Virus record (IMG/VR): IMGVR_UViG_3300030117_002455
Location: 1 to 28,106 of that record
From: a virus
DNA: 28,106 nucleotides
Direction: 5' to 3' (one strand)
This document shows, in pieces, positions 755-19,333 of the stretch (position 1 is the first letter of the stretch; each line of letters starts with the position of its first letter). The position numbers were made by a program, and so were the translations under genes. Under the pieces are notes generated by a model, which was not told the DNA's origin, did not search any database, and was given only the letters and a program-made list of their open reading frames with translations.

Positions 755-895
755 ATGTATTATGATGTAGAAAAAGACATAGTGTATTTTGCTTGTCTTT
801 CAGTAGTAGAACTAATGTTTTTATGTTTATGCATTGTTGTGTTATATGAAGCAATAAAATATATTGCAAGGATGGTGCGTAATGGAAAACAATAA
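755..895 (+). CDS. small single-pass membrane protein, 46 aa
   Basis: A short gene starting MYYDVEKDIV. It has one long hydrophobic stretch (about residues 9-34, Cys/Leu/Val rich) and a basic tail (ARMVRNGKQ), consistent with a single transmembrane helix with a cytoplasmic C-terminus. A GGATGG sequence overlapping the end of the previous gene serves as a weak ribosome site. The end overlaps the start of the next gene at 882. Small early membrane proteins are common in phages, with roles such as superinfection exclusion, but nothing here identifies a role. Confidence 0.55.
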   Translation: MYYDVEKDIVYFACLSVVELMFLCLCIVVLYEAIKYIARMVRNGKQ

Positions 896-1295
896 TGAAG
901 AAATACTTAGAAGATTCAAAGAACAAATGACATGGGCTGGTGAACAGTTAGTATCATGTAAAGACTTGGAATCATTTGAGTTGAGAGATGCGATAGTAAA
1001 TAAAAGTACTGATGTTGCATCAAAAAGATTGGATGATGGTAAGAAAAAATACTTACATCAAGTACCAATAACTTTGGAAGAATGTTTCAATGCAAATCGA
1101 AACAATCTGACAGAGTCAATAGAAGAAGTAATAGATGGATTGATATATGTAATAGCTGAGACTATTTTACAAACTCAGATTACAGATGAGATAACATCTA
1201 GTTACTTAGAGAAAGCTAAGGCATATCAGTTTTACAGCTTGTTTTTCCTAATGGTAGCTGATATGCACGACAAAAAAGGAAAAGAAAATGAGTGA
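882..1295 (+). CDS. hypothetical protein, 137 aa, possibly MazG-like helical fold
   Basis: ATG 882 is preferred to the in-frame TTG at 864, because AAGGAT lies about 8 bases upstream. The protein looks wholly helical. The segment around residues 76-93 has the pattern E-x2-EE-x2-DG-x2-Y (E78, E81, E82, D85, Y89). This resembles the metal-binding acidic helix of all-alpha NTP pyrophosphohydrolases (MazG/dimeric dUTPase fold), which many phages encode to adjust nucleotide pools. The likeness is weak and the full set of acidic residues is not clear. The end overlaps the next gene by 8 bases, so it is co-translated with the ubiquitin-type cassette downstream. Confidence 0.55.
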   Translation: MENNNEEILRRFKEQMTWAGEQLVSCKDLESFELRDAIVNKSTDVASKRLDDGKKKYLHQVPITLEECFNANRNNLTESIEEVIDGLIYVIAETILQTQITDEITSSYLEKAKAYQFYSLFFLMVADMHDKKGKENE

Positions 1296-1602
1296 TGAAA
1301 CTCAAGTCCAGATATCTGGCATTCGTTATAAGGTTAATTCAACAGAGTGGGTTGTAGACACATCAGACACCGCAAGAGGTTTGAGTAGTGTTCGTGATCT
1401 AGTAGAATACTTACAGACAGTTGATCCAGCTTCTTACAGTGGTATTGATACTGAGAATCCTCAAGGTAGTATCAGAGTCAATATGAACAGAGCAAACTTA
1501 AGAACATTGTTAACACCAATGCATCCATCAGCACCAGAAGGTGAGAGATGGGCGTTTGTTGCGTTCAATACTGAAAGAAAGAAAGGTGGATGCCTTAACT
1601 AG
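1288..1602 (+). CDS. candidate ubiquitin-like modifier with C-terminal Gly-Gly
   Basis: 104 aa. Seen directly: a compact, mostly beta-looking sequence whose last strand (WAFVAFNTER) runs into KKGG and then only three residues (Cys-Leu-Asn). Ubiquitin and many ubiquitin-like proteins end in Gly-Gly and are made with a short tail that a peptidase trims. A JAMM peptidase, an E1-like enzyme and a candidate E2 are encoded immediately downstream, so this is the natural candidate for the conjugated modifier. I could not confirm a beta-grasp fold by eye. It could instead be an unrelated small protein with a chance GG. The start overlaps the previous gene by 8 bases and has AAAGGA upstream. Confidence 0.5.
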   Translation: MSDETQVQISGIRYKVNSTEWVVDTSDTARGLSSVRDLVEYLQTVDPASYSGIDTENPQGSIRVNMNRANLRTLLTPMHPSAPEGERWAFVAFNTERKKGGCLN

Positions 1603-1613
1603 TAATAATAATA

Positions 1614-1637
1614 GAGGGGTAGTGTATGCTGCCCCTC
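1614..1637 (+). promoter_or_regulatory. strong stem-loop between modifier and E2-like genes
   Basis: A 9-bp stem (1614-1622 with 1629-1637, one G-U pair) with a 6-nt loop lies 11 bases after the modifier stop and 7 bases before the ribosome site of the next gene. It has no T-run after it, so it is not a standard terminator. It could partly stop transcription, or protect the upstream mRNA 3' end, so that more modifier than enzyme is made. This is inferred from position only. Confidence 0.5.
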
Positions 1638-1655
1638 ATAAACGTAGGAGTGTTT

Positions 1656-3548
1656 ATGTGGATTAAAGAAAGTTGGGATGATGTTGAGATAAATCTTGAC
1701 AACATTTCACAGGAAATGATAGTAGGTCCTTCTAATATGGTAGCACAAAGATTATCTAGCATCAATGATAGATATCTTACAGCTAGATATATTGGAGGTA
1801 ACAGGTCTATGGTAGAACCTATAAAGCCTCTAAGTTTTACAAGAACTTACAGATGGTCACCAGGATACAAAGATACTATCAAAAAAGTTCTATGGGACAA
1901 CTTGTATCAATTTAGTAAAAAGAGTGGTTCACTAGAAACAATGTTCAATAGAGAACGCAATGCTCAATACAATACTAATCATTTCAAAGAACAATTGTTG
2001 CAAGTAGATGATTTATTGAAAGAGCTTAGAAGTAGAAAGGCTACAACAGATACCGATGTTGAAACAGCAAAAGGTATTGTTGCAGATTTGTTAAGTAGAA
2101 TGCAAGAAAAGATGGATGAAGCAGAACTTATATTTGGATTGGATAAAAATATTCAACATGAGTTTGTATTCAGATATTACAGAAATGAAAGCATGGAAGA
2201 TGAACCTACTGAAGAACAAGTACAATTACTTAGATTCTTGACTGGTGAACTTGAACTTAACTTGACATACAAAAATGTAGAAATACCTATTGTTCATAGT
2301 CAATTGAATAAAACATATGGTTCATTGGAATATTGTCATGATATATCTTTGACATTTAGTATGCCATTTTACATTGTATTTCAGTCTTTGTTTACAAAAG
2401 ATTTTGATACATTGAATGGTAATGATGTATATGGTGAAAGATACAGAACACAAAGAACCATTGATAATCATTTGCTTGGAGCAGGTTTGTCTACAAACAG
2501 AAGTAGTTTTAGATATACTGACAGTTCATTCTTGGGATGGGGTGGTTGCAAAGAAATGAATGGTTACAGATCATTTCCATACATCAGTTCATCTAATAGA
2601 GATATAGAAGATATAGATAGAATGCATCATGTATGTTATGGTAACATGCAGAATGATGTTCAAAATTCATTTGTTAGATTAGATTTTGTAAGTCTAGCAG
2701 ATAATATATCTCATTGGATGAGTTATGATTTGCACGATACTAATCCATTGAATCAACTTACATATTCATTCGTTACAATACCAGCAGATAAATTTGATGC
2801 TGATATTGTAGAAGATTATGGTGGATTTAATTTTGAATATATGCATGATAAATTGATTGGTGATTGTTTGCCAATAAATATGGAGTTATTCAAAGAACTA
2901 ACATATCATACTGGTGACTCTTGGATGCCAAGGAATTATGATATACAGTATGCTTTATGGTCGTATGGTAATATATCTAAAAAAGATGTTACAATCAATG
3001 AACAGAAAGCAATATTTGGATGGGATTGTATGCATGAAAGATATGTTCCAAATCAAATACATGTAACTGAAGCACTAAAATACATGCATGATGAACTAGG
3101 TATGATAGATGCAGATAAATTAGAACTTGAAGAAGGTACACTTCATTACAAGATTAATTTACCTCTGATGAATAGATACTATGAGTTTTTGTACAGCGTG
3201 TTATCAGCAGTTGACTTTATACTTGAAGAAGATAAATGCTTATCAAGAACATATGGTCATAGTGTTGCAATAAAGCGTGTCATAACTTACATAGAAGATG
3301 GCATGCCTACACTTGGTAAAACTGATATTGAAAGATTGGAAGAACAACTTCAAGAAAAGTTAGTAAATCCTTTACAAACAATAGAAGTAAATCCTAATGC
3401 AGACTTACCATTTGGATCAGTTGAAGTAACAGCTGACCCAGATGCTGAAGATTTGTATGAAATGGATTATCCAGAAACAGAAACTGCACACTTAAGTGTA
3501 GAAGAGATACAAAGAAGAATCGATACACAAATGATGGAGGATATGTAA
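1656..3548 (+). CDS. large protein with candidate E2-like (UBC-type) domain
   Basis: 630 aa. ATG 1656 has TAGGAG five bases upstream. An in-frame ATG at 1626 lies in the loop of the preceding hairpin and lacks a ribosome site. Residues ~105-170 look coiled-coil. Residues ~195-370 have an order reminiscent of bacterial E2-like domains: alternating strands, a Trp-Gly-Gly turn (295-297), FPYIS (307-311), then HHVCYGN (324-330) with C327 as candidate catalytic Cys, then a helix and NPLNQL. Bacterial E2-like families (for example PRTRC protein B) typically show HPH(V/I) followed by a Cys-aromatic-Gly motif. The remaining C-terminal ~260 residues are unrecognised and end in an acidic tail. Its place between modifier and JAB/E1 genes supports the call. 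E2 identity is an inference and the length is far above a bare E2 domain. Confidence 0.45.
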   Translation: MWIKESWDDVEINLDNISQEMIVGPSNMVAQRLSSINDRYLTARYIGGNRSMVEPIKPLSFTRTYRWSPGYKDTIKKVLWDNLYQFSKKSGSLETMFNRERNAQYNTNHFKEQLLQVDDLLKELRSRKATTDTDVETAKGIVADLLSRMQEKMDEAELIFGLDKNIQHEFVFRYYRNESMEDEPTEEQVQLLRFLTGELELNLTYKNVEIPIVHSQLNKTYGSLEYCHDISLTFSMPFYIVFQSLFTKDFDTLNGNDVYGERYRTQRTIDNHLLGAGLSTNRSSFRYTDSSFLGWGGCKEMNGYRSFPYISSSNRDIEDIDRMHHVCYGNMQNDVQNSFVRLDFVSLADNISHWMSYDLHDTNPLNQLTYSFVTIPADKFDADIVEDYGGFNFEYMHDKLIGDCLPINMELFKELTYHTGDSWMPRNYDIQYALWSYGNISKKDVTINEQKAIFGWDCMHERYVPNQIHVTEALKYMHDELGMIDADKLELEEGTLHYKINLPLMNRYYEFLYSVLSAVDFILEEDKCLSRTYGHSVAIKRVITYIEDGMPTLGKTDIERLEEQLQEKLVNPLQTIEVNPNADLPFGSVEVTADPDAEDLYEMDYPETETAHLSVEEIQRRIDTQMMEDM

Positions 3549-3549
3549 G

Positions 3550-4434
3550 ATGAGTAAATTCATAATGAGTAATGATGATTGGAACACACTTCAACATTAC
3601 GCACAATATGCATGGGATGAACATCAAGCAGAGATTGGTGGTTACATGGTAGTAAAATATGTAAATGATCAGTTTGTGTTTAGTGAACCTTGCATACTAG
3701 AACAAGAAATAACTGGTGGTAATACTGATATTACTCAAGATGCACTTGCTGAATATTACATGAAGCAAGAAGTAGAAAATGTATCAGAACCGTATTGGTT
3801 ATGTTGGTGGCATAGTCATCACACTATGGGAGTGTTCTGGTCTAGTACAGATCATGCAGCAATAGAACAATCTAAGTGTAATGGTTATGCTTTTGCATTG
3901 GTAATTAACTTGAAAGGTGAACAAATCTTGAGAGTTAGTGATTGGAAAACTGGTATACACACTGACACAGAAGTACAAATACAAAGTGTTAAGAATGAAA
4001 TACCAGATACAATCAAGAAAGAAGTAGAGAAGTTGTGTACTAAACCTAAGTTTGAAATAAAGAAGTACCAAACTCCTACAATACGTAAAGGATATAATCC
4101 TTATCAACATACTTATGCTCAGATAGGTATGTGGGAAGATAAACAAGATGATGAGAAAGTACAACTTGAAGCTGACTTAGACAACATACTTCAAGACTAT
4201 CTAATGGATAATGATTATGATAGTTGTAGAAAAAAGGTTGGTAATCTCAATAGAAAATTGGGAAGAGACAAGAGTGAGTTACGAGTTGTAAACTTGAAAA
4301 AAGATAACCTTGATCTAGTAATCAATGTTGCATTAGCAGAAGATTATATTTATGTCAAGGGTACAGAACATGATACTGATGGTATGGTAGCACAAGCCAT
4401 TGCTGACAGTGCGTTCGAAAGGAGTTTCAAATGA
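3550..4434 (+). CDS. JAB/JAMM (MPN) metalloprotease, deubiquitinase-like
   Basis: 294 aa. The first ~130 residues carry the complete JAMM zinc motif: E28 in AEIGGY, then H88-S-H90, seven residues, S98-x2-D101. This is the exact E...HSH-x7-S-x2-D pattern of active JAB1/MPN+ isopeptidases, so catalytic activity is likely. Such enzymes cut after a ubiquitin-like C-terminus, either trimming a precursor tail or removing the modifier from targets. Here the obvious substrate is the 104-aa protein ending GG-CLN. Residues ~130-294 are a separate, charged, mostly helical region of unknown role, possibly for substrate or partner binding. The gene begins 1 base after the E2-like stop, with GGAGG upstream, and overlaps the E1-like gene (ATGA). 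Confidence 0.88.
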   Translation: MSKFIMSNDDWNTLQHYAQYAWDEHQAEIGGYMVVKYVNDQFVFSEPCILEQEITGGNTDITQDALAEYYMKQEVENVSEPYWLCWWHSHHTMGVFWSSTDHAAIEQSKCNGYAFALVINLKGEQILRVSDWKTGIHTDTEVQIQSVKNEIPDTIKKEVEKLCTKPKFEIKKYQTPTIRKGYNPYQHTYAQIGMWEDKQDDEKVQLEADLDNILQDYLMDNDYDSCRKKVGNLNRKLGRDKSELRVVNLKKDNLDLVINVALAEDYIYVKGTEHDTDGMVAQAIADSAFERSFK

Positions 4435-5081
4435 ATGAAAGGTATTCAGGTATAGTTACAAACTTTGGTGAATACGCTTATCATTTTCTAGGTTGCGGTG
4501 CTATTGGTAGTGCCGCAGCTATGACAATGGCTAAGATGGGTGCAACTACTATACATCTATATGATATGGATATAGTAGAAAGTCCAAACATTGGTGTTTC
4601 AGTATATGACAATAACGACTTACGTAAAACAAAAGTCGAAGCATTGAGAGATAGATTGCTTGCAATTAATCCATCAATGAATGTTTATGCACATCATGGT
4701 GAGTTCAAAAATATATCACCAGAACATAATAACATTGTAATCATGGGATTTGATTCTATGGAAGCAAGGTTAGATGCAGTAACTAATATACTAAAACTAG
4801 AGAAACCAGATGTATTGATTGATGGTAGAATGGGAGCAGAACACTATCAACAATACACATTCAAGAGTCCAACACTAGCACAATACAAGAAAACTTGGTA
4901 TTCAGATGCTGAAGGTGATGATGACCCTTGTAATGCAAGAGCTACAAGTTATTGTAGTAATATGTCTGGTAGTTTCATATGCAACAGTGTAAAACAGATA
5001 TTGAAAGAAGAACCTTATTGCAAGGATTTTTCTTTTAATTTCCAAACAATGTCGCTAGATTCTACTGGATTATACACATAA
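4431..5081 (+). CDS. E1-like ThiF/MoeB-family adenylyltransferase
   Basis: 216 aa, shorter than typical ThiF/MoeB (~240-250). A Rossmann nucleotide-binding loop GCGAIG (21-26) is followed by LYDMDIVE (D45, D47), N53, K66/K68, and D108 with R113. This is the usual E1 order for ATP binding and acyl-adenylation of a Gly-Gly C-terminus. Two cysteines in DPCNARATSYC (C167, C175) sit where E1-like proteins carry a catalytic Cys. The Arg usual three residues after the conserved Asn (NxxRQ in MoeB/ThiF) is Val56 here, so the adenylation site is somewhat unusual. The zinc CxxC pairs of MoeB are absent. It overlaps the JAB gene by 4 bases and has an AAAGGAG site, so both are made together. Thiamine or molybdenum cofactor work is unlikely, since no such genes are nearby. 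Confidence 0.85.
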   Translation: MNERYSGIVTNFGEYAYHFLGCGAIGSAAAMTMAKMGATTIHLYDMDIVESPNIGVSVYDNNDLRKTKVEALRDRLLAINPSMNVYAHHGEFKNISPEHNNIVIMGFDSMEARLDAVTNILKLEKPDVLIDGRMGAEHYQQYTFKSPTLAQYKKTWYSDAEGDDDPCNARATSYCSNMSGSFICNSVKQILKEEPYCKDFSFNFQTMSLDSTGLYT

Positions 5082-5090
5082 AATAAATAG

Positions 5091-5146
5091 GGAGGGTCGC
5101 ATAAATATACCTCTCTTCTCAATCCACTATAACACAGCGGCCCTCT
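5091..5146 (+). terminator. stem-loop closing the ubiquitin-type cassette
   Basis: A 10-bp stem (5091-5100 with 5137-5146, two G-U pairs) with a 36-nt AT-rich loop starts 9 bases after the E1-like stop. TTTATTG follows it. The T-tract is poor and the loop long, so it may be a weak terminator or a processing/stability element. It lies 6 bases before the GAAAGG site of the next gene. Confidence 0.4.
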
Positions 5147-5163
5147 TTATTGAAAGGTTAAAT

Positions 5164-5448
5164 ATGAAAGAAATGAAAGACACTACATGGTCAATCAAAC
5201 ATGAGGGTAAGTTAAATCCTAATAATATCATCTTCAATAATAAGTATAAAGAACTATCACAAAAACTTAAAGAAGTTGATGATTCAATAAAAGAAATACA
5301 CAATGAAGATCCAGGACTATTAGTATGTACAGTATGTAATACAGGTTCAAATCCAGCAGGACATGCTGAAGAGTTTGGTGATATATGGGTAGCATATTGT
5401 CAAGGTTGTGGTGATTATGGTGAATTTATTTACGAAAAAGATTTGTAA
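5164..5448 (+). CDS. zinc-ribbon protein, 94 aa
   Basis: ATG 5164 follows GAAAGG (5152-5157). The N-terminal half (residues ~24-48) is a Lys/Glu-rich helix. The C-terminal half is a zinc ribbon with CTVC (C55, C58) and CQGC (C79, C82), four Cys for one zinc. Small zinc ribbons bind nucleic acid or proteins. Lying directly after the E1-like gene, it could be an adaptor for the modifier system, but it is separated by a stem-loop and may simply be the first replication-region gene. It has too few ligands for a RING finger. No closer family assignment is possible. Confidence 0.7.
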   Translation: MKEMKDTTWSIKHEGKLNPNNIIFNNKYKELSQKLKEVDDSIKEIHNEDPGLLVCTVCNTGSNPAGHAEEFGDIWVAYCQGCGDYGEFIYEKDL

Positions 5449-5611
5449 TATTCAATATTTATTTGTATATTACAAGGTTAGATATTAGCAGGTTGCCACA
5501 AAATGCCCGAGGGAGCAGATACTGTATTCATAGAGGATGGCAACCTTGAGAATCCCTAATTGCACTTGCGTAATATTGTGATGTGTTGTGCCAACATCGC
5601 CCCTGCAATAT
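5443..5611 (+). promoter_or_regulatory. structured untranslated region with competing helices
   Basis: Several perfect helices fill the gap before the gene at 5653. (1) 5443-5451 with 5467-5475, 9 bp, over the previous stop codon. (2) 5490-5498 with 5538-5546, 9 bp, enclosing a small hairpin from 5504. (3) 5573-5578 with 5606-5611, enclosing a bulged hairpin (5580-5588 with 5592-5598). In addition CAAGGTT (5473-5479) can pair with 5542-5548. That pairing would break helices 1 and 2, a switch-like arrangement. A ribosome site (GAAAGG) follows at 5637. It matches no riboswitch class I know, including the glutamine aptamers of marine phages. A promoter may lie here too, but I cannot point to one. 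Confidence 0.5.
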
Positions 5612-5652
5612 CTACATAATAATAATAATAAGAAACGAAAGGTAATTTGAAT

Positions 5653-6231
5653 ATGAAGTTCAAAGGTAAAGAATATACTGAAGTAAAAGATCGTCTTGAC
5701 GCATTCTTGTCAGAATATCCCGAAGCAACAATAGAACCTAGATTAGTATCTGTAAATAATGTTACAGACACAGCGTCTGGTGAAAGATGTAACGAATATT
5801 TGATGCAAGCTACAGTATACCCTGACAAAAGTAACAAACCTGATTGGTATTATGTTGGACACGCAGCAGAGCGTGACAATACAGGATTTGTTAACAAAAC
5901 ATCAGCTCTAGAAAATGCAGAAACATCTGCAGCTGGTAGAGCATTAGCATTTGCTGGCTTTGGTGGAGGCTATTCAATAGCTTCTAAAGAAGAAGTAGAG
6001 AATGCTAAAACTGCACAAAAGAAATCTCATGTTACTATTAAAAAACTAGAAGCATTAGATAAATTAGCTGCAACCGCTGCACCATTCATAGGTGATGAAG
6101 CATATCTTAAATACAAGAAGCAAAGACAAGATGGTTATTTTGATACAGTAGTAAGAGTCAATACAGCTACATCTTTCTTCGAAGCTAAGATACAAGACGG
6201 AGGATCGAATGGTAAAAAAGAGGATGCCTAG
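5653..6231 (+). CDS. candidate single-strand annealing protein (ERF/Rad52-like)
   Basis: 192 aa. ATG 5653 is chosen over the in-frame TTG 5647 because of its better distance from GAAAGG (5637-5642). An N-terminal alpha/beta domain has strands LMQATVYP and WYYVGHA. It is followed by ALENAETSAAGRALAFAGFG (residues ~94-114), then IASKEEVENA. This TSAxGRAL...G...AS-x-EEV pattern is typical of phage single-strand annealing proteins of the ERF/Rad52-like group, which coat and pair single strands during recombination-dependent replication. The C-terminal third is charged and probably flexible. It sits just upstream of an SSB-like gene and the primase-helicase, which fits. The exact subfamily is unsure. 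Confidence 0.55.
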   Translation: MKFKGKEYTEVKDRLDAFLSEYPEATIEPRLVSVNNVTDTASGERCNEYLMQATVYPDKSNKPDWYYVGHAAERDNTGFVNKTSALENAETSAAGRALAFAGFGGGYSIASKEEVENAKTAQKKSHVTIKKLEALDKLAATAAPFIGDEAYLKYKKQRQDGYFDTVVRVNTATSFFEAKIQDGGSNGKKEDA

Positions 6232-6999: not shown

Positions 7000-7253
7000 T
7001 GACTGCTGAAGAGATAGTTATAGCATGGATAAAGAGCATTAAAAACAGAAATAATGTTTTTTATAGCTATGATTTAGAAGGCAGTTTACCATTATACGGT
7101 AGGCTTACGCATCAAAAGATGCATACTGCAAGTACTTATGCTAGGGCATTTAGAAAGATACGTGAAAGTAATACTTTAAAAAAGCATGGTATAAAACTTG
7201 AAGAAGTTGAACATAACAGTGGGAAAGTAAAAGGATGGAAAATAATAGGATAG
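6999..7253 (+). CDS. small putative winged-helix-like protein, 84 aa
   Basis: The ATG overlaps the previous stop by one base (TAATG). The sequence has helices (EEIVIAWIKSIK; TASTYARAFRKIRE) and then a short beta hairpin (KLEEVEH...KVKGWKII), the helix-helix-hairpin order of a small winged-helix DNA-binding domain. The second helix has evenly spaced Arg residues suited to DNA contact. The family is not recognised. Its place just before, and overlapping, the primase-helicase suggests a replication accessory or regulator. Confidence 0.6.
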   Translation: MTAEEIVIAWIKSIKNRNNVFYSYDLEGSLPLYGRLTHQKMHTASTYARAFRKIRESNTLKKHGIKLEEVEHNSGKVKGWKIIG

Positions 7254-9028
7254 TAGAAGTTGTTACTGGTGGCATTAATAAAAGAAATACATTGATGCCA
7301 TACAATAATTACTTAGAGTTAGAAAGTAAAAACGCTTTTAAAAAAGAGATGTATAGATCATACTATATGTTTGATGATACATTTAATCAACATGTGTCTA
7401 CACATAAAAGCGTAAAAGGATACAATGGTTTAGTGTATCCTGACAGATTAATTATAGACTTAGATAAAGGTGATATAGATGGAGAAAATCTACAAAGTTA
7501 TCTCAAACATGTTTGTAATGAGTTGTTTGATTTTGGTATTGACAGCAGTCATATTAATGTCTGGTTTAGTGGTAGTGGCTATCACATTGAGTTACTTAAT
7601 GTATTTGGCTTTCAACCAAACAAAAACCTACATGTCAAAGTTAAATCTACTTTAACAGAACATTTTAGTTTTGGTGATAACATATATGATAAGACAAGAA
7701 TAATAAGATCAAAATGGTCTTTGAATTTGAAAACTAATTTATATAAAGTATGGATTCCATTAGAAGATATTTGGACAATATCTTATGATGAAGTATGTAA
7801 TCTTGCTAAGTCTAAAAAATCATATGATGAGTATGTAAAAACTAAACCTAATTTCTATGCAACATTGAACAGTGAAGACGTAGTAATAGAACCTTACTTA
7901 CAAACTTCTATTATAGCTAGCCCTAGCAATAGTGCTAGCCTTACCCCTGTGCGTGCTGGAGATACTAATTCAGTAGTAACTTGTGTACAACATATATTTA
8001 ATGAAGGACCTACTCAAGGTTCACGCAATAAAAATATGATGCGTATGATAAGCTCTTGGAAGAGAGCTGGAATACCATTTATTGTAACGTTAAACGGTAT
8101 GATAAAGTGGTCACAAGGAGAACTAGATACTAATGAAATAGAACGTACTGTAATGAATGTGTATGATAATCAGTACATTTACGGATGTGATGATTCAATA
8201 CTTATGGAGTATTGTGATCCAAAATGTATACACTTCAAACGTAAAGACTATGTATTGGACATTAGAGATGTAGATTCATTAGAAAATACATTTGTAGAAT
8301 ATATACAAAAAGACTTTACAAAACGCAGTATAAATATTGCTGATGTGTTTCCAGGTGGACCAGATTATATCTTTAAACCTGGTGAATTAGTAGTCTTCAG
8401 TGGTGACACTGGTATGGGTAAGACAGCATTTGTACAGAATCTTGTAGCTAAATCTAAGAAAGATACATTGTTTCTATCATTAGAAATGAATGAAATCTTA
8501 ATATGGAGACGCTTTGCACAGATCATAATGGAACAGAATGCTGATTGGGTAATCAATCAGTACAAAAGTAATCCAGACTTTTCTGTAAAAGAGTTGCTAG
8601 ACCATCTTAAAATTATGGTAATAGCACCAGAGATTGAAGCTGTAAAGAAAGTAGTAGCACAATATGAACCTAATATATTAGTAGTAGATACTACTGATGA
8701 GATGCAAGTAGATAGATATGATGGTGAAATACAAAAACAAAATGTAATTATAGATGCATTGAAACAGATAGCACAACGTAATAACACTTTGATATTTGCT
8801 ATACATCACTTGAATAAAGCTAGTGCTTCTCAAGGCACAGTTGGACTACACTCTTTAAAAGGTTCATCTAATGTTGTACAAAAAGCAGATAAAGTTATTG
8901 TTTTAAAAGGTAATCGTAACGAAATTTATAGGACTGTTATGTCAGAGAAATCTAGAGATGATGGTAAATTAGAATTTGTTACAGAGTTTCACCCTGAAAC
9001 AATGACATTTAAACGAATAGAAGTTTGA
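7235..9028 (+). CDS. bifunctional primase-helicase (AEP primase + RecA-type helicase)
   Basis: 597 aa. The N-terminal half has the three archaeo-eukaryotic primase motifs: LIIDLD (D75, D77, metal binding), SGSGYH (112-117, His in the nucleotide site), and DKTRIIRSKWSLNLKT (about 152-167) with its Arg and Lys residues. The C-terminal half is a DnaB/RecA-type ATPase with Walker A GDTGMGKT (390-397), LSLEMNE, Walker B ILVVDTTDE around D485, and HHLNK as the sensor-type motif. The protein would prime and unwind at the fork, a layout comparable to T7 gp4 but with an AEP primase instead of a DnaG-type one. It overlaps the preceding gene by 19 bases. A GGGAAAG site lies 7 bases before the ATG. Confidence 0.85.
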   Translation: MENNRIVEVVTGGINKRNTLMPYNNYLELESKNAFKKEMYRSYYMFDDTFNQHVSTHKSVKGYNGLVYPDRLIIDLDKGDIDGENLQSYLKHVCNELFDFGIDSSHINVWFSGSGYHIELLNVFGFQPNKNLHVKVKSTLTEHFSFGDNIYDKTRIIRSKWSLNLKTNLYKVWIPLEDIWTISYDEVCNLAKSKKSYDEYVKTKPNFYATLNSEDVVIEPYLQTSIIASPSNSASLTPVRAGDTNSVVTCVQHIFNEGPTQGSRNKNMMRMISSWKRAGIPFIVTLNGMIKWSQGELDTNEIERTVMNVYDNQYIYGCDDSILMEYCDPKCIHFKRKDYVLDIRDVDSLENTFVEYIQKDFTKRSINIADVFPGGPDYIFKPGELVVFSGDTGMGKTAFVQNLVAKSKKDTLFLSLEMNEILIWRRFAQIIMEQNADWVINQYKSNPDFSVKELLDHLKIMVIAPEIEAVKKVVAQYEPNILVVDTTDEMQVDRYDGEIQKQNVIIDALKQIAQRNNTLIFAIHHLNKASASQGTVGLHSLKGSSNVVQKADKVIVLKGNRNEIYRTVMSEKSRDDGKLEFVTEFHPETMTFKRIEV

Positions 9029-10132: not shown

Positions 10133-13100
10133 TTAATCCTCATCTAAGTCAAGTATATCATCTTCTGTTTCAAGTAACCTTTGTTCGTTGATTTGATCAC
10201 GTCTTAGTTGATGTAATCTATGTAGTGGTAGTCCAGTCATAAAATCTACTGCCATAGCTGGTGATTCATATGTACGTTTAGCATCACGATACAATCTACC
10301 AAAAGGAAAATATGTTGCTAATTGATACTTAGTAAAGTTTTCCCAATCACCATTAAGAATAGAAGTCATAGGAGATAATACAAATCTACCAATAGGAGGA
10401 GTTACCACCTGTAAAGGAGCAAGCACAGGATGAGGATAAGAACTAAAGAATGCACGTTCTCTATCTTTAGCATCACCAAATAGTAATGCAGATGTATCTT
10501 GTAACCAATTCATAGGTGGAGATAATGCATATTCAAAGATACTTGCAACAAATATATTAGCTAAACCTAATGCAAACAGATCAAAAGTAAATTGTCTTTG
10601 AAACTTTTTACTTGCTAATACTTCTCTGTTCCAACCTGTTTGTCTAGCATCTTTAAATAGATTCATACGTCTACCAATACTATTCCATGCATATGGTTGG
10701 AATCTAGTCAATACACGACCTAAAGATGTATTAGCAAAGTTAGGTCTAAATGTAGCTTGATACATAAATTGAGATGCAGTAACACCCTTCATTGCAAAGT
10801 CTACCAATACATTACTATTAAATGGTATTCCTTCAGCAATCTTAGGTCCCAATACATTTTGATGCATGTTAATATAGTTAGCTAAGAAAGCAGTACCACG
10901 TAGTTTACGTTCAGACCACTTCATAGGCAATGCACCAAAGTCTGTTATAGGTATATCTATCTTAGAATCTCTCAATACTTCTCTTAATGTTTTTTTAGCA
11001 TCTCTATTTGCAATAGCTTCTGTAGTTATTTTACCCTTAGCATAAGAACGATTTGTTCTTCTCAGCCACTCTTCTACTACTTTTCTTACATTATCTTTAC
11101 CATATTGTTTATCTAAAGCTATCAAGTCTAGAAACATCTGGTCATATACACCTAATGATTCTAACCACTCATAAATTCTTTTCTCACTGTTAATTTTTTT
11201 CTTAACAACTTTACCACCAGTACCAATAAAACTAAACTCTGCTCTACCATTATCAAATATATTCTTAATCATCCAAGCTGGATCATTAGCTCGTCTAAAA
11301 GACTGCCAACCTGTATCAGATATGGTATTAATAGTACCACCATATAAATTTGTTATAGCTGTTTTAGGGTGAGATAATAAAGATAATAACTCAAACTTAC
11401 CTTCTAAATCACTTAAGTTTCTAATGCGTGACATAATGGCAAACTGTCTATCTCTAGGATTGGTAGGTAAATCACCAAAAACTTTACCACCAAATAATTT
11501 ATTTATTCTTGTAAATGCAGCTACTGCAACTTCATCACTAGTATAATGATACAATGAACCATACTTACCTGTAGTATTTACTTGTTTTACTAAGTCTTTA
11601 GCACGTTTCATCTTCAATGCATTAACTTCTTTTTGTGCAGCAGCAACTTTGTTTCTATTACGTCTTAATATAAGTAATTGTTCTTGTGGTCTAACTTCAA
11701 TAGCATGATTAAAATCTCTTAACAATTCTAACTCATAGTTCTTTTTAGGTCCCATCTTGTCTATATCTAAATCATTCTTAATAAACTCTTCAAATAATGG
11801 TTGATCTTGCTTTCTAATACCATGAATATTGTATGCTCTATATGTACTTAAACCCATCATATTAGTTGCAGCATTACGTATATAGTTTGACCATTCTCTA
11901 GCATATTGTTTACCTTGATTTCTGTAATCAAAGTTTTTCAATAATATCTCAGTACGTAATCCAGCTAAATTAGTAAAGTACATTTTAAATAATCCAGTAG
12001 TATAATATCTTAAAGCATCTAAATCTTTTTTATAGTATGGCATAAACTGTTCACCTCTACTCTTTGTAGAACCCGCAGCATAGTCTCCAATAAAACCATC
12101 TACATTAGGTCTAGACATTAAATCTATAATTTGTCTTTCAGCCTTAGCTTGACCAGCAGTTAATGAACTACCCATTTGTCTTTCAAAATTAGACATCAAT
12201 TGTGATTCATATATCTTCAATGCAGTCTCAACATCTAATCTTTTATATGCAATCTCTACTCTTAAATCTACAGGTATTTTAGTATTGTCTTCTCTAGCAG
12301 CTTTTATATCATCTTTTATTTTATTTTTTTGCCAGTCTTCTAATAAATCTTTTTCTGCTTTTATAGAACCGTGAGAATTTCTAGGAAAGTATCCTTGTAC
12401 AATATCTCCAACTTGAAACCTTGCAAAGTAATCTGTGTTCTTACCTTGCTTACCATATAACTCCCTAACTACTTGTCTTTGTATTGTTTTTAAATCTTTA
12501 CTATTCAATGGTTTATTTAAATCTATTTTAGGATATAAAAATTGGACTCTATCTTTTACTTCTAAATGAAACTTAAAGAATCTGTAGTCGTTAATACTAG
12601 GTAAATACTTAGATATGTATTCACGTTTAGATATACTAGCACGATCAATATCTTTGTATAGTATAGATATTTTTTTAGTATCTATAATTCCTGACTCTTG
12701 TAAAAATAATTGTTCCATATTTACTACGCTTTTATTCTCAGGATTTGTTTTAGATAGCTTCCATTTACCTATAACAGTACCATCTTTTTTCATTCTTAAT
12801 CCAGATACTTTGTAATTATTAATTAAAGTTCTTGCTAACTGCTTATCTCTAGATTTAATAAATACTTTATCTATATCTTTTACTAAGGTATCTATATCAC
12901 TTCTAATTTTTTCTACAAAAGCATCAGCTGTTATCCTTTCTTTTACAGCATCTTTAGTTCCAGAAGTAATAGGAAATTTAAAACCTTCTGCATCTAGTTC
13001 TTTAATAGCTTTTTCAGAATCTTTCCATGCTTTAGTAATTGCTGCTCTTTCAGCTTTATCAAATGAACCAGTAGGAAACTTACCATCATTCCACTCTTGT

Positions 13101-16100
13101 TTATTAACAGCAGCTTCAAATAATAAATCTCTATATTCTTTTAATGTATTACTACCATAATCCAAATATTCAAATGTTTCATTTATCTTATCCTGCATTA
13201 ATGGATTCATAACCTTTTGAAATGTATCAAAAGAATCTATTGTTTGCCTAGCTAACTCTAACGTAGATGTTGGTACTTCAATTCTTACAACTTTCATTTC
13301 TCCGTTTTTATCTACTATTGGTCTACTAAACTCATCTGTTAACTGTTCTGTTTTAGCTAATTCTTTATTAACTACAGTGTAATTTAAAGTATTATCTAAT
13401 GCATTTGGTCCTCTAGAAAACTCTCCTAATTTTTGTGATGGTTTTTTAGATGAGTATAATACTTCCAAATTATCATTAAACATTTTTAAATCTTTTGTTG
13501 TAAGAGTATCTAATCTTCTACCCATACCTTCTAATCTATAAGTTAAATCAATAAATAATTCTTCAAATCTATTTATAGCATCAGGTGATTTAGTTATTAT
13601 TTGTCTTAATCTTTTTAACTGAGTTTGTGCTTCTGTAGTAATTACTTGGTTTCTTAGATTCTGTTGATTGGTTATATAATCAAACTGTGGTAATAGTTTA
13701 CCTATTAATTCTTCAGAGTTAAATAATTTATCTGCTATTTTTTCAGTATCTTTAGCTGGTTTTTTACCAGACTCTTGTGCTTTATTAAATCCTTGCCAGT
13801 CATATACAACAGTTCTGTCATCTCCAGTACCTTCTATCTTTATATACTCAGACATTTTAGAATTATTTTCTAAGGCTTTTTCTATAGTATTAATATCAAA
13901 AGTTCTATCACCACCAATAATATAATCATTAATAAACTTCTCTACGTTTTGATCTTTAACAGTTCGTAATCTATTAGCTATAGTCATTGTATTTTTATTT
14001 AGTAATATACCAGATCTTTCAAAAAACTTTTTCTTATTCTCTGGTTTAATAGCTATAGACTTTATTACAAATGGTGCTTGTGCTTGTATACTGTTAATAG
14101 CTTTTCTTTTTATGTCTAATGCTTTTTGATATATACCGTCTTCTACTGTAAAATTTTTATCTTGTTCTTTTAATACCATTTCTACATTTTGTGCTTCAAT
14201 ATCTGCTATTACTTTTTCTTGTAATTTAGTAGGGTCTTTACCTACAATAGGTGTTGCTAATAACCAAGTATCTATTATTTCTTCTAATCTATTTACTAAT
14301 ACAGGCTCATCTTTAAATTTATTTTTAACTTTAAACTTTAATGTAGCAATCATATTATTTATATCTGCTATTTCTAATTCAAACTTTTCTTTACCTGTAA
14401 TAGACTGTAACTGGTCTCTATCATATAATCTTTTAATTTTATATGTCTGATCTATAATATCTCTAGCAACTATCTCTATAGATTCTCCAGTATATTTACT
14501 TTGTAAAGCACCGTCAACATCTTTTATAAGAGTATCTGTCATTCTTGATGCTATAAATACACCTTGGTATTCAATCATTTTCTGATGTAATGCATCATAG
14601 TTTTCATTCTTAATCAACATATCTAATGTAGCTCTTGCTTCTAAATCATTACGATAATTATCAGATAGATCAAATCGTTGTAGTTTTTTATCTTTTAAAA
14701 GTTTTTCTCTTAATAGTAAAGTATATTGTCTAGCAACTTCTACGTTATTAAATCCTTGAAAATTGTCTGCAAACATATATTTAAAAGGATTAATAGTAAA
14801 ATTATTATATGCTTTCATACCATTTGCAAGTTCATAATAGTAATGATTTTGTGCACCAAACTTATCAATATAACTATCTGCTATTTTTTGTGCTATATCA
14901 AACTTCATTTGTCCTTTACCAAGATAAACTACATTGTGTAGCTCTCTTATATGATTTAAAGCATCAATATTTTTAAATGCTGTAGTAAAATTATCTACCT
15001 TTGCACCTGTAACTTGAAAGTATTTCTTAAAGAACGTATCTTGTATTTTATTAAACTTTTCTATCTTTACAAAGTTAGCAGAGTCTGCCATTAAATTTAC
15101 ACCGATATAATTATCTAACTGTAAATCTTTTATATTACCTTTAAACTTTATAGAAACTGGAGATTCAACTACCTTCTTTAGTTTTTTACTGTAAACACTA
15201 TGAGTAGCATTCAATACACCGCCATTTTGTTGTATTAAGTCTGCAACAACTTGCATCTTGTTAAAACTTGAAACAACATAATCAATATTAACTTTACCTA
15301 TCTTAGCATTACGTGCTACATTTATACGTGTATCGGTATTTAAAAGATCTTCTAATGCTTTTTTACTACCTTTAGATACTTTTACTTTACCAGTGGTATC
15401 ATAAGGCTCAACTAGTTTTGTGTCCTTCCAGGTACCTTCTGGTTGCTCAAATGACCTAGTCTCGCCATTAACAAACAATTCACTTTCATATTTATTAAAT
15501 ACTTTTTTAAATATACTAGGCATATTTTGATATACCATAATACCATCAGCGTCTTTATCTGCACCACCTAAATAATAGTCTGTCTTGGATGTAGTTACAG
15601 CATGTATACCTTGACGTTTACTAAATCCAGCAAACTCTACAACACGTACACCACCATTACCACTGTTAGGGTTTCTCATAATTAAAAATGTTAATGCTTC
15701 TTTATAATTATTATATAGTTTATGTTGAGTAGGATTACTTCTCATTGGTTTAAATGTATTCCATGCCTGCTCTAATGTAACTTCACCAACATCTTTTACA
15801 TTTATTTTTTTAGATCTTACATCTTCACCAAATTTTATTTGATTATCTTTTAATCCAGAAGCTACTTCCAAATCTGCTGGACCTAACTTAGCTTCAAATC
15901 CATATTGTGTAGTAGGTTTTACAAGTCTTGTTTGTCTATAGTTAGATAAACTTTTATTTACCCAAGATAATATAGGTGGATAAGTTATTGCTCCTATATC
16001 ATAATCTACTTTAGCTAATATATCTGGTACATCCATAGTCTCTATACCAAAAACTTCTGGATCTAGTTTATCACCTTGTTCTTGTATTTGATTGTGATAA

Positions 16101-19100
16101 TCCTCTTGACCTCTCTCTATTATTTTCTTTAATACTTTTCTACCAAACTCAGTACGTACACCAGTTTCAGATATAGCTTCATTAATTAAATCTAAACTAA
16201 CACTATTCAAATCTCTTATTTCAAATGTTCCGTCATTCTTTTTCATAGCAGTTTGAAAAGCTATATTATCTGCTTCTTTACCACCTAAAGATTCTTGTAC
16301 TAATTTTCTATACGCATTTCTAAAATCTGCACTATCAGTACCTAACTGTTCGTAATTTATCTTATCAAACATTTGTTTAGATATAAGTACAGGTCTATTT
16401 AATTTACCATAGTTCTCATATACACCATAATTAAGATACAGTTCTTCTGGTTTCATCTTAAATGATTGTATAGGTTCTTTAACACTCCACTCATTTTTAG
16501 TAGCATTATAATCTAAAGTATGTTTCTTTAATCCTACCTGAGTTTTGGTTGCAGATTCTGACGCTATAAAATGTATATTATTATCTAACATAAATTTATT
16601 CATAGCATCTGTAGCCTTAAATGTTCCTGTCTTTAATAATATATTACCTACCCCATCAGCTGGTGCTTTAAATCCTACAAGTTTTAAAAATCCATTACGT
16701 GCTGGTCTATAGTTTTTTGTTTGGAATACATCAAATGTATCTTGTCTAGTGTATACTACAGCATCTGTAGCAGACACAGAAGGTTCTCCCTTAACTGTAA
16801 AACTTGATGGCAAATCTTTAAATTGTATAAAATTAAATGTACCATCAGTCCTTAAGTTTGGATCTTTATTGTTTTGTAAGTGTTGTACAAAGTCTACTGC
16901 TTCTTGTTTAATATCAGCACCTTGTGCTAAGTTTTGATATTTATTAAATGATTGTACGGTTTCAAATAAAGGTTCTTTAATATACTCTCGCATACCTTTT
17001 GTTAAACTATCTACAGTAGGAGGAACATCAGTTCTAATATAACCTGATTCTGCTAATAAATAATATACGTTAGATACATATTCTTTTGCTTGTTCGTTAG
17101 TAACTTTTTTACCAGTAAATAAACCTAAGTTTTTTAAAATTTGTTTTTGTTGTGCAGTATTTAATTCTGAATTAGTAAACGGAAACTTATGTATAAGTAA
17201 CATTCCACTATCTTTTGCACCACCATATATGTATGCATCTTTTTTAGCAAGTTCTTTTTTAATAGTTTGTAATGCTTCTTTAGTTAAATAATCTCTAAAC
17301 TGTTCTGCTTTTAATGTTTGTAATTCTTTCTTAGTTAATGGTTTAGATTCAAATCCTAAAGGAGACTCTACCCTAAACTGTGCTTCTTCATTTAATCTTT
17401 GCTTTATACCATAGGTATTATAACTGTCTAATACATAAGACTTTCTTAAAATTAATCGTACTCTTCTACCATCTAATCTTTTAAATGCTTGATTGTATTT
17501 ATTCTCTGCTCTACTAGCATTAATAGGTAATCCTTCTATACTAACTTTAGGTGCTGGTATAATCTGTAATCCATCGCTAGATAAGTCTATTAACAACTCT
17601 GGTCTATCTACAATGTTCTTTCTTACTTTTAAATATGAACCTAATCTATTAACACCTATATCTCTTAATGCCTTAACAGTATCTCCTTTACCTTTATACT
17701 TAGCAGTGAATAATTGTTGAAATGTAGGTAAATCATAATTACTATCTACTGCAATTTTAGATATTTCTGTCATAAGAGCGTCTGTATTTCTACCTATCTT
17801 ATAACCACGCATTACATCTGCGATTAAACGTAAATCATTATTCATTACCAATGGTTCATTTATATCTTTATTATCTACAGTTTTTAAAAATCCTTCATAG
17901 TCTAACCCTATGTCATTAATAATATCTTTTTTTATTTTATCAAATTGTTTTTGTTTTTCTGGTTTGTTAGATAGGTCATCTTGAAATTCTATAATAGGGT
18001 CTTCTAAAACTTCTGCTATTTTCTGTTCTTGTGCTTTTTTCTTTATAAATTCGAATTGTTCTTTACTTGCTTTAGGTAAATCAATGTTATTTTCTTTAGC
18101 TATTTGTTTTATAAGAGCTATAGCTTCACCCTCTAAAGTATTTCTTCTGTTAAAAATTTGTTGTTGTACTACGTTAATATGATTCTTAATATAGTTTTGG
18201 TCATAAGAAGTAAGTTTTGCAAACTCTTTATCTTTACTTAAATCTTTTAATACTTGATCAACTGGTTTTGTAGGATCTCCAATCTTAGAAAAGTTTTTAT
18301 TTATATATCTAGTTCTATCTATAAAGCCTCTATCTCTAGCAGTAGCACCAAAGAAAGCACCTAATAAATATTCATATACTTGTTCTGGTACTGGTAGTCC
18401 TTGTGCTGTAGCCATACCACCCTGAAATCCTGCACCCATTGCACCTTTAAGTGCCATATTAATACCACGTAACTGTGTTTCTGTATCATATGCTTTTTGT
18501 GCTACACCTCTTACTATTTGTTGTCCCACTTTTTCTGTCTTAGGATTACCTAATAGTCGTGCTACATTAACATAGTTACCTATAGTACCAAATAATGCAC
18601 CAGCAGCAGCACCATGTATAGCAGTATCAGCCATAGCTTTAGGTCCATCTTTCCAACTAGATACACCCATAGCAACACCTAAGTGCAATGCCTGTTCTCC
18701 AACATCTCTTACTCTAGCATTAGCAAATATACCTTTAGATAAGAAACCCATAGTATCTACATTTGCTCTACCTAAACTAGATTTAATATTTTCAGTAGCA
18801 ATATCTGCTATTTTCATTGGTATTGATTGTAATACAAAGGTATCAGTACCTATCTCTTTTCTTAAAAATGATGGAGCTTTTTGACCAGCTTTTTGTAGTC
18901 CTTTAGATACAGCACCAGCACTACCACGACTGATAGCTTTAGCAGTAGCAATAGGTACATATTGTCCCATAGATAATACACTAGCAACAACGTCAGGTGC
19001 AAATCCAATCAAATGTCCTACTTTATTAGCAATAGATTCTGCTGTAGTATCAGGGTCTTCTGCCCAACCAAGTGTAGTAAAACCTTCTACCATACCAGAT

Positions 19101-19333
19101 ACAAACTGATTTACAGTAGACATAAGATTAGCATCGGCTGCTTCTAAATCTCTATTAAAAGGCAAGTCTACTTTTTTAAATTCTTTTGCCATAAAGTCTA
19201 CCTCTTCTTCGGTAAATGAAGTAGGGTTAGCTCTATATATAAGATCTAATTGATTGTAGTATTCTTGCGGATTTAATACACCCTTGCTATAAGCATCAAG
19301 TGCTTGAATTAAATACGGATTCTTATATTCCAT
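10133..19333 (-). CDS. giant internal virion protein with RNA-polymerase-like core
   Basis: 3066 aa. The N-terminal ~340 residues are Gly/Ala-rich with amphipathic or membrane-like helices (HLIGFAPDVVASVLSMGQYV; GALFGTIGNYV). The C-terminal ~450 residues have LSHPKTAITNLYGG (from about 2653), then hydrophobic Pro/Phe-rich helices. This make-up fits proteins ejected with DNA that bridge the cell envelope. The middle holds K901, K906 and SATK (K930), then RNP (R1220-P1222) and GADKDADG with D1259, D1261, D1263. This order resembles the two double-psi barrels of multisubunit, YonO- and crAss-type RNA polymerases (NRAP ... NADFDGD in bacterial beta-prime, ~35 residues apart; 39 here). I infer a virion-packaged polymerase. 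The Gly of DFDGD is Ala here. No lysozyme domain is seen inside it. It is the last gene of the block, with TAATG overlap to its neighbour. Confidence 0.7.
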   Translation of the reverse strand: MEYKNPYLIQALDAYSKGVLNPQEYYNQLDLIYRANPTSFTEEEVDFMAKEFKKVDLPFNRDLEAADANLMSTVNQFVSGMVEGFTTLGWAEDPDTTAESIANKVGHLIGFAPDVVASVLSMGQYVPIATAKAISRGSAGAVSKGLQKAGQKAPSFLRKEIGTDTFVLQSIPMKIADIATENIKSSLGRANVDTMGFLSKGIFANARVRDVGEQALHLGVAMGVSSWKDGPKAMADTAIHGAAAGALFGTIGNYVNVARLLGNPKTEKVGQQIVRGVAQKAYDTETQLRGINMALKGAMGAGFQGGMATAQGLPVPEQVYEYLLGAFFGATARDRGFIDRTRYINKNFSKIGDPTKPVDQVLKDLSKDKEFAKLTSYDQNYIKNHINVVQQQIFNRRNTLEGEAIALIKQIAKENNIDLPKASKEQFEFIKKKAQEQKIAEVLEDPIIEFQDDLSNKPEKQKQFDKIKKDIINDIGLDYEGFLKTVDNKDINEPLVMNNDLRLIADVMRGYKIGRNTDALMTEISKIAVDSNYDLPTFQQLFTAKYKGKGDTVKALRDIGVNRLGSYLKVRKNIVDRPELLIDLSSDGLQIIPAPKVSIEGLPINASRAENKYNQAFKRLDGRRVRLILRKSYVLDSYNTYGIKQRLNEEAQFRVESPLGFESKPLTKKELQTLKAEQFRDYLTKEALQTIKKELAKKDAYIYGGAKDSGMLLIHKFPFTNSELNTAQQKQILKNLGLFTGKKVTNEQAKEYVSNVYYLLAESGYIRTDVPPTVDSLTKGMREYIKEPLFETVQSFNKYQNLAQGADIKQEAVDFVQHLQNNKDPNLRTDGTFNFIQFKDLPSSFTVKGEPSVSATDAVVYTRQDTFDVFQTKNYRPARNGFLKLVGFKAPADGVGNILLKTGTFKATDAMNKFMLDNNIHFIASESATKTQVGLKKHTLDYNATKNEWSVKEPIQSFKMKPEELYLNYGVYENYGKLNRPVLISKQMFDKINYEQLGTDSADFRNAYRKLVQESLGGKEADNIAFQTAMKKNDGTFEIRDLNSVSLDLINEAISETGVRTEFGRKVLKKIIERGQEDYHNQIQEQGDKLDPEVFGIETMDVPDILAKVDYDIGAITYPPILSWVNKSLSNYRQTRLVKPTTQYGFEAKLGPADLEVASGLKDNQIKFGEDVRSKKINVKDVGEVTLEQAWNTFKPMRSNPTQHKLYNNYKEALTFLIMRNPNSGNGGVRVVEFAGFSKRQGIHAVTTSKTDYYLGGADKDADGIMVYQNMPSIFKKVFNKYESELFVNGETRSFEQPEGTWKDTKLVEPYDTTGKVKVSKGSKKALEDLLNTDTRINVARNAKIGKVNIDYVVSSFNKMQVVADLIQQNGGVLNATHSVYSKKLKKVVESPVSIKFKGNIKDLQLDNYIGVNLMADSANFVKIEKFNKIQDTFFKKYFQVTGAKVDNFTTAFKNIDALNHIRELHNVVYLGKGQMKFDIAQKIADSYIDKFGAQNHYYYELANGMKAYNNFTINPFKYMFADNFQGFNNVEVARQYTLLLREKLLKDKKLQRFDLSDNYRNDLEARATLDMLIKNENYDALHQKMIEYQGVFIASRMTDTLIKDVDGALQSKYTGESIEIVARDIIDQTYKIKRLYDRDQLQSITGKEKFELEIADINNMIATLKFKVKNKFKDEPVLVNRLEEIIDTWLLATPIVGKDPTKLQEKVIADIEAQNVEMVLKEQDKNFTVEDGIYQKALDIKRKAINSIQAQAPFVIKSIAIKPENKKKFFERSGILLNKNTMTIANRLRTVKDQNVEKFINDYIIGGDRTFDINTIEKALENNSKMSEYIKIEGTGDDRTVVYDWQGFNKAQESGKKPAKDTEKIADKLFNSEELIGKLLPQFDYITNQQNLRNQVITTEAQTQLKRLRQIITKSPDAINRFEELFIDLTYRLEGMGRRLDTLTTKDLKMFNDNLEVLYSSKKPSQKLGEFSRGPNALDNTLNYTVVNKELAKTEQLTDEFSRPIVDKNGEMKVVRIEVPTSTLELARQTIDSFDTFQKVMNPLMQDKINETFEYLDYGSNTLKEYRDLLFEAAVNKQEWNDGKFPTGSFDKAERAAITKAWKDSEKAIKELDAEGFKFPITSGTKDAVKERITADAFVEKIRSDIDTLVKDIDKVFIKSRDKQLARTLINNYKVSGLRMKKDGTVIGKWKLSKTNPENKSVVNMEQLFLQESGIIDTKKISILYKDIDRASISKREYISKYLPSINDYRFFKFHLEVKDRVQFLYPKIDLNKPLNSKDLKTIQRQVVRELYGKQGKNTDYFARFQVGDIVQGYFPRNSHGSIKAEKDLLEDWQKNKIKDDIKAAREDNTKIPVDLRVEIAYKRLDVETALKIYESQLMSNFERQMGSSLTAGQAKAERQIIDLMSRPNVDGFIGDYAAGSTKSRGEQFMPYYKKDLDALRYYTTGLFKMYFTNLAGLRTEILLKNFDYRNQGKQYAREWSNYIRNAATNMMGLSTYRAYNIHGIRKQDQPLFEEFIKNDLDIDKMGPKKNYELELLRDFNHAIEVRPQEQLLILRRNRNKVAAAQKEVNALKMKRAKDLVKQVNTTGKYGSLYHYTSDEVAVAAFTRINKLFGGKVFGDLPTNPRDRQFAIMSRIRNLSDLEGKFELLSLLSHPKTAITNLYGGTINTISDTGWQSFRRANDPAWMIKNIFDNGRAEFSFIGTGGKVVKKKINSEKRIYEWLESLGVYDQMFLDLIALDKQYGKDNVRKVVEEWLRRTNRSYAKGKITTEAIANRDAKKTLREVLRDSKIDIPITDFGALPMKWSERKLRGTAFLANYINMHQNVLGPKIAEGIPFNSNVLVDFAMKGVTASQFMYQATFRPNFANTSLGRVLTRFQPYAWNSIGRRMNLFKDARQTGWNREVLASKKFQRQFTFDLFALGLANIFVASIFEYALSPPMNWLQDTSALLFGDAKDRERAFFSSYPHPVLAPLQVVTPPIGRFVLSPMTSILNGDWENFTKYQLATYFPFGRLYRDAKRTYESPAMAVDFMTGLPLHRLHQLRRDQINEQRLLETEDDILDLDED

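Follow-up and report, generated by a model that had tools for sequence, protein, structure and literature searches.

A conserved four-gene phage cassette that probably encodes a ubiquitin-like conjugation pathway

Bacterial ubiquitin-like (Ubl) conjugation systems with assigned functions, Bil and type II CBASS, defend against phages. The Bil operon comprises four separate genes, encoding a Ubl (BilA), a conjugating enzyme or E2 (BilB), a JAB/JAMM protease (BilC) and an activating enzyme or E1 (BilD); BilA has two ubiquitin-like domains, and BilD is a pseudodimeric E1 with an added cysteine domain (PMC11354881). Cap2 and Cap3 of type II CBASS fall into the same component classes (PMC10097602), the PRTRC or class 6d operons hold separate Ubl, E2-like, JAB and E1 genes (PMC1779556), and lambda-type tail genes (TAPI/TAPK) encode a Ubl with JAB/NlpC (PMC1779556). 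The present study concerns the virus record IMGVR_UViG_3300030117_002455 of IMG/VR, analysed over its whole 28,106 nucleotides (28.1 kb; hereafter the window). Four consecutive plus-strand genes at 1288-5081 encode a Ubl modifier, a 630-amino-acid (aa) E2 candidate, a JAB protein and a ThiF-like E1 (Table 1). This cassette is real, its motifs lie far beyond chance and it is strongly conserved. We consider it probable that it constitutes a complete, reversible Ubl-conjugation pathway of the phage itself.

The cassette has the same parts as Bil, and its genes follow one another as the names BilA-B-C-D do. In contrast to Bil, the phage Ubl has a single domain and not the two of an ISG15-like Ubl, the E1 is just 216 aa long, and the whole is a phage-borne core module instead of a bacterial defence system. 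The Bil models of PADLOC-DB matched neither the Ubl, the 630-aa protein nor the JAB protein, and none was among the best 25 of 33 models for the window E1; the BilD model was weak (2.5e-5) on the related E1 of the crAss-like phage crAss001. The PRTRC and class 6d operons resemble the cassette in keeping the four components as separate genes, a bacterial locus (L087) has E2, JAB and E1 in that order, and a VCxGN cysteine pattern is common to the phage 630-aa protein and some PRTRC-B proteins. The E2 candidate, however, is 630 aa long against about 250 aa in PRTRC. PRTRC_ThiF (TIGR03736) gave 18.8 bits on the window E1, far below its cut-off of 144.75, and PRTRC_A, PRTRC_B and PRTRC_C had no match in the window proteins. 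Prok-E2_D (PF14460) was found neither in the 630-aa protein nor among the families listed for 41 members of its family. The scanned proteins included no ParB, although no search was aimed at it. We regard the cassette as likely to work in the manner of these systems but, since the curated PRTRC and Bil models failed, do not file it as a member of either.

Type II CBASS (Cap2/Cap3) and 6A-MBL systems share with the phage locus an E1 similarity (NF058523, 1.7e-11; PADLOC E1-E2 models, 1e-12) and a JAB partner. Unlike type II CBASS, the phage has its E1 and E2 candidate in separate genes and carries a dedicated Ubl; an E1 of this length leaves no room for an E2 domain, so it is no Cap2-type E2-E1 fusion. 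No CD-NTase was matched by any cassette protein or by those neighbouring proteins that were scanned. The equivalog cut-offs of ThiF (59.3 vs 159 bits) and MoeB (36.5 vs 266 bits) were both missed by the window E1. The lambda-type tail genes are alike in being phage-encoded Ubl and JAB genes, whereas they belong to tail assembly and no E1 or E2 has been described for them.

Evidence for a functional unit comes from synteny. An IMG/VR scan with the E1 yielded 219 relatives, from which 80 loci were kept, 48 of which extend 4.2 kb or more upstream. All 48 had a JAB gene and a member of the 630-aa family. The modifier was found in 45/45 assessable loci, the other three being loci whose sequence stops inside the 630-aa gene, and the order Ubl, E2 candidate, JAB, E1 held in each of these 45. 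To avoid the bias of anchoring on the cassette itself, the primase-helicase was taken as a second anchor, giving 31 loci down to 55% identity. Five were cut off (L111, L114, L123, L133 and L138); 25 of the 26 assessable ones had all four genes in the same order, although, with near-copies among them, they stand for fewer than 25 independent phages. In the exception, L132 (same contig as L023), the Ubl is directly followed by JAB (1375-2714). This independently anchored count makes the cassette a core module of the lineage. Furthermore, ratios of nonsynonymous to synonymous substitution of 0.03-0.45 across the four genes indicate purifying selection. An earlier sequence-only reading of this DNA, made without database searches, had named conserved synteny beforehand as a test that could refute its proposal of a ubiquitin-type cassette; the outcome was overwhelmingly in its favour with both anchors. 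Its expectation that a full set would be unusual does not hold within these phages, where the cassette is the rule; the unusual point is that the papers searched gave no description of it.

In three of the loci (L044, L045 and L047), the E2-family gene and JAB are separated by about 3.3 kb with some eleven small open reading frames (ORFs). A scan of 84,980 species genomes found no family E1, and so revealed neither a prophage nor a host. It did return two ThiF-like proteins from Bradyrhizobium, each roughly 747 aa long, which were rejected as members of the family.

The sequence-only reading had described contiguous, translationally coupled genes with a GG-ending small protein, a Cys-Gly motif protein, a perfect JAMM motif and an E1-like ThiF protein. 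Contiguity stands. Coupling is borne out at three junctions, where the gene upstream overlaps the Ubl gene by 8 nucleotides (nt), the 630-aa stop lies 1 nt from the JAB start and JAB overlaps E1 by 4 nt, and fails between the Ubl and the 630-aa gene, which are 53 nt apart. There the 630-aa gene has its own Shine-Dalgarno sequence, with AGGAG 5 nt upstream of the ATG at 1656; a longer ORF begins at 1626. The di-glycine is not the actual end of the modifier, which continues for three residues (KKGG-CLN). The remaining descriptions agree with our results: the cysteine of the Cys-Gly motif is C327 in HHVC-Y-G, to which we add a second invariant cysteine, C528, and modifier, JAB, E1 and E2 candidate do occur together in a phage, adjoining replication genes (a primase-helicase at 7235-9028, about 2 kb downstream).

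Table 1. Coordinates of the cassette, its key residues and the overlapping upstream gene in the window.
Feature	Position	Strand	Basis or remark
Conserved 143-aa protein, function unassigned	864..1295	+	8-nt overlap with Ubl start
Ubl modifier, 104 aa	1288..1602	+	ThiS/MoaD-type beta-grasp, C-terminus KKGG-CLN
Di-glycine codons G100-G101	1585..1590	+	Invariant 33/33; CLN tail is the predicted JAB cleavage product
E2 candidate, 630 aa	1656..3548	+	Motif conservation and AlphaFold2 model
C327 codon of the E2 candidate, cysteine proposed to form the thioester	2634..2636	+	Invariant in 46/46 non-redundant homologues
JAB/JAMM metalloprotease, 294 aa, predicted Ubl maturation and deconjugation	3550..4434	+	Pfam Prok-JAB
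JAMM motif HSHHTMGVFWSSTD (H88, H90, S98, D101)	3811..3852	+	Partner glutamate E28 at 3631-3633
E1-like ThiF adenylyltransferase, 216 aa	4431..5081	+	Pfam ThiF, alignment, tree
E1 C167 codon, proposed catalytic cysteine (PC-N-A-R-A-T)	4929..4931	+	Invariant in 25/25 phage E1s

The JAB and E1 proteins are the most readily recognised parts. Pfam Prok-JAB matched the 294-aa protein at 4.7e-5 (23.7 bits vs a cut-off of 25), and a JAB homologue was present in 78/82 sources. The motif H-x-H-x7-S-x2-D was complete in 57/57 sequences covering the region (59 non-redundant in all) and E28 was 98% conserved. By its sequence, this protein is a JAMM/JAB metalloprotease with an intact metal site. The E1 matched Pfam ThiF at 4.6e-18 and has the nucleotide-binding loop GCGAIGS and the motif IDGRMGAEHYQQY. 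Phage E1s share the pattern IDGR[ML]-x2-E-x2-Q, and in a tree they group apart from PRTRC and the two Bradyrhizobium proteins (94/79; the branches are long and the outgroup is small). C167 was aligned in phage E1s that take in crAss001 and Flavobacterium phage Fpv1, and its position and invariance suggest that it is the catalytic cysteine. By its sequence, the 216-aa protein is a ThiF/E1 adenylyltransferase with an invariant cysteine.

The window Ubl itself had nothing convincing in Pfam, and contains insertions relative to its relatives, which are mostly 66-80 aa long with the ThiS-like pattern VNG...L.DGD.VA.V..NKTGG. Pfam ThiS matched 12 of 33 relatives (best 1.9e-5), and the family profile found MoaD in the PDB (E=0.005). 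The AlphaFold2 model had a predicted local distance difference test score (pLDDT) of 81, with nearly all top fold matches ubiquitin-like (best E=0.08). A scan with one 66-aa relative as query returned no match besides itself. In the alignment of the 33 relatives, G100 and G101 were invariant and K98 nearly so. Therefore, sequence relatives and, with weak E-values, the model place the 104-aa protein in the ThiS/MoaD/ubiquitin-like family with a nearly invariant K-x-G-G terminus; the sequence-only reading had named the lack of a beta-grasp fold here as a further outcome that would refute it. Among 46 distinct family sequences, 18 end at the di-glycine and 28 carry tails of 1-10 residues, so that most of these Ubls would need trimming.

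The 630-aa protein begins with a helical region in which GP(Q/S) and RWxPG are conserved, and continues with a beta-meander, a cysteine core and a variable C-terminal region. The core follows the pattern HP[YF]I...[VI]C-x-G...W...P-L-N, with a constant spacing of 36-37 residues from C327 to P364. Both C327 and C528 were invariant in 46/46 non-redundant homologues, and an alignment of 41 sequences had G24 invariant as well as these two cysteines. Close to the C-terminus, most relatives have three cysteines in the pattern YC-x4-IxC-x4-C-x2-Y; the window protein keeps the middle one alone (C528). In the AlphaFold2 model (pLDDT 77), a beta-meander at 166-237 is followed by the cysteine loop, at low confidence, and then by helices, the order that a UBC domain would show. 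Foldseek against BFVD gave six significant matches, all unnamed viral proteins, which are probably members of the same family. We regard this protein as a probable E2.

Several results weigh against a conjugation pathway, and most of them concern this protein. It has no convincing Pfam family and falls into no recognised family, its profile found nothing in the PDB, and Foldseek of its AlphaFold model against the PDB gave no E2 (best E=2.3). In an hhalign comparison of its family with PRTRC-B, just ..VCYGNM../..VCVGNA.. aligned (E=0.09); a comparison with 11 PRTRC-B sequences was not significant, nor was a profile comparison with gp78 of crAss001. The 27.8-kb record of L132 contains no E2-family match anywhere, and the E-values of the Ubl fold match are weak. 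As a control, a PRTRC-B profile built from Pfam Prok-E2_D matches also found nothing in the PDB, so the corresponding sequence negative for the 630-aa protein is uninformative.

Related cassettes occur elsewhere, too. The closest E1s in named phages belong to Crassvirales and Flavobacterium phages. In crAss001 the order is gp79, gp78 (H-x-H...C-x-G), gp77 (JAB) and gp76 (ThiF), where gp79 has a beta-grasp-like N-terminus ending in KKIKSG, and the cassette, plus one further gene, sits between primase and uracil-DNA glycosylase. The same arrangement was found in cr106_1, cr126_1, 'frurule', cr128_1, cr85_1, cr111_1 and Dulem virus 41. DAC15 has an identical order with all genes annotated as hypothetical, and bajarodcaudo virus 1 has the four genes and the upstream primase on a stretch that ends before any glycosylase. 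Homologues of gp78 and gp79 were found in 45 phage records each; a search of plasmids with the crAss001 E1 found none. Crassvirales and Fpv1 match the window in the order Ubl, Cys-x-Gly protein, JAB, ThiF, and in the E1 motif IDGR(M/L)xxExxQ with its invariant cysteine; the crAss-like cassettes likewise adjoin a replication gene, the primase. In their Ubl, a beta-grasp-like N-terminal domain ends in K-x-SG or KSGG; in most of them, unlike in the window, it is fused to a C-terminal region. Another difference is that gp78 has no significant similarity to the 630-aa protein. In Crassvirales (Steigviridae), existing annotations read 'metalloprotease' and 'thiamine biosynthesis protein'.

Two of these loci have peculiarities of their own. 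In cr106_1 (L090, 2199-3402), a stand-alone 92-aa Ubl gene ending in KKIKSGKF is followed by an HNH endonuclease gene and a small gene, where its relatives have one fused Ubl gene. In Fpv1 (L083, 3653-5945), the JAB gene seems to be in two parts, 3653-4006 and 5001-5945. Between them, on the opposite strand, an ORF at 4169-4918 has LAGLIDADG-like motifs, which would suit an intron that carries a homing endonuclease gene.

The biochemistry of the proposed conjugation pathway may be pictured on the model of Bil and Cap2/Cap3. JAB would trim the Ubl, where tailed, to its K-x-G-G terminus. The ThiF-like E1 would adenylate the C-terminal glycine and could carry the Ubl on C167, from which it would pass to C327 of the E2-like protein and then onto an amino group of the target. 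There is no obvious E3 gene, so the long stretches at either end of the 630-aa protein may select the target, and JAB could strip the Ubl off again. The likeliest target, though at somewhat less than even odds, would be a phage or host replication or transcription protein needed in every infection, as opposed to one defence system. This is a tentative guess from position and conservation, as the module is near-universal and lies about 2 kb from the primase-helicase here and beside the primase in crAss-like phages.

The main competing explanation is a sulfur-carrier system, in which the E1 makes a Ubl thiocarboxylate, JAB trims the Ubl and the 630-aa enzyme uses the sulfur for nucleotide, tRNA or cofactor modification. 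The nearest Ubl profiles are indeed ThiS and MoaD, the best curated E1 models are ThiF, and bacterial ThiS/MoaD-JAB-E1 clusters are known in sulfur assimilation (PMC1779556). Yet the gene that separates Ubl from JAB encodes, as it does in conjugation operons, a protein with E2-like motifs and an invariant cysteine, and no rhodanese, cysteine desulfurase or sulfur-pathway gene was found among the proteins scanned, a subset of the genes. We consider this explanation unlikely; it keeps a small probability as long as the E2 fold lacks proof. The genes might also be unrelated, brought together by chance and only resembling such a set in their motifs. This would agree with the unrecognised family of the 630-aa protein, but not with a linkage kept in dozens of divergent phages under purifying selection; the synteny refutes this explanation, to which we give virtually no weight.

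Two other proposals are compatible with working conjugation and differ in its use. The set might serve counter-defence, competing for or removing the conjugates of host Bil or type II CBASS (Cap2/Cap3), whose component classes are the same (PMC11354881, PMC10097602); the resemblance of the E1 to the PADLOC E1-E2 models also fits. On the other hand, BilA, BilB and BilC models had no match, reversal might need no more than a JAB, whereas the phage has retained a modifier and an activating enzyme of its own, and the cassette is core to the lineage and not patchy. Such near-universal presence argues against an optional counter-defence gene, and we find this use improbable. A role in the virion, where the Ubl would be joined to a structural protein in assembly or packaging, seems fainter still. 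Bacterial Bil is reported to act on a phage tail protein, so tail proteins are possible substrates, which counts in favour of such a role. It would also suit the Ubl and JAB encoded in lambda-type tail genes (PMC1779556). However, the cassette adjoins replication genes and not structural genes, and of two papers on the crAss001 virion, neither names gp76 or gp77 in its main text, nor does the one searched for gp75, gp78 and gp79 name these.

Outside the cassette, the 143-aa protein upstream of the Ubl has 20 homologues among the E1-anchored loci and precedes the Ubl in most primase-anchored loci. It has no family in Pfam, and we treat it as a conserved neighbour in part of the family, outside the pathway proper. 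Directly after E1, a 94-aa protein (5164-5448, plus strand) has two CxxC pairs and is zinc-ribbon-like. It was considered as an E3 and rejected: its homologues, found in many loci, lie beside E1 in some and about 5 kb off in others, so it was left out of the pathway. Farther along the window, all on the minus strand, a 3066-aa protein without a Pfam match (10133-19333) occupies about one-third of the sequence, and PHROGs matches point to a lysozyme/endolysin-like protein and a metallophosphoesterase at 21089-21583 and 24931-25698. For a protein running off the contig end (27416-28105), Pfam gave matches to pretoxin HINT (8e-7) and to AXH (1.8e-7), which would make it a phage protein with a domain of the autoprocessing or intein-like kind.

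In the open-access literature, no description of a phage Ubl-conjugation cassette was found; subscription papers lay outside that search, so prior notice is possible. The main texts of the crAss papers examined do not contain the word ubiquitin, and ThiF or thiamine, where searched there, was also without result. The crAss proteins labelled 'thiamine biosynthesis protein' and 'metalloprotease' resemble an E1 and a Ubl protease, and these labels would need correcting. It is conceivable, though still doubtful, that the pathway is core to three or more phage lineages (the uncultured group studied here, the crAss-like gut phages and the Flavobacterium phages) related through their E1s, that it modifies a replication or take-over protein, and that it represents a non-defence viral ubiquitin system in bacteria. 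As culturable crAss-like phages such as crAss001 carry the cassette, the tagged protein can be sought. Phages bearing the whole pathway as a near-universal gene block would be a reversal of its anti-phage use by bacteria.

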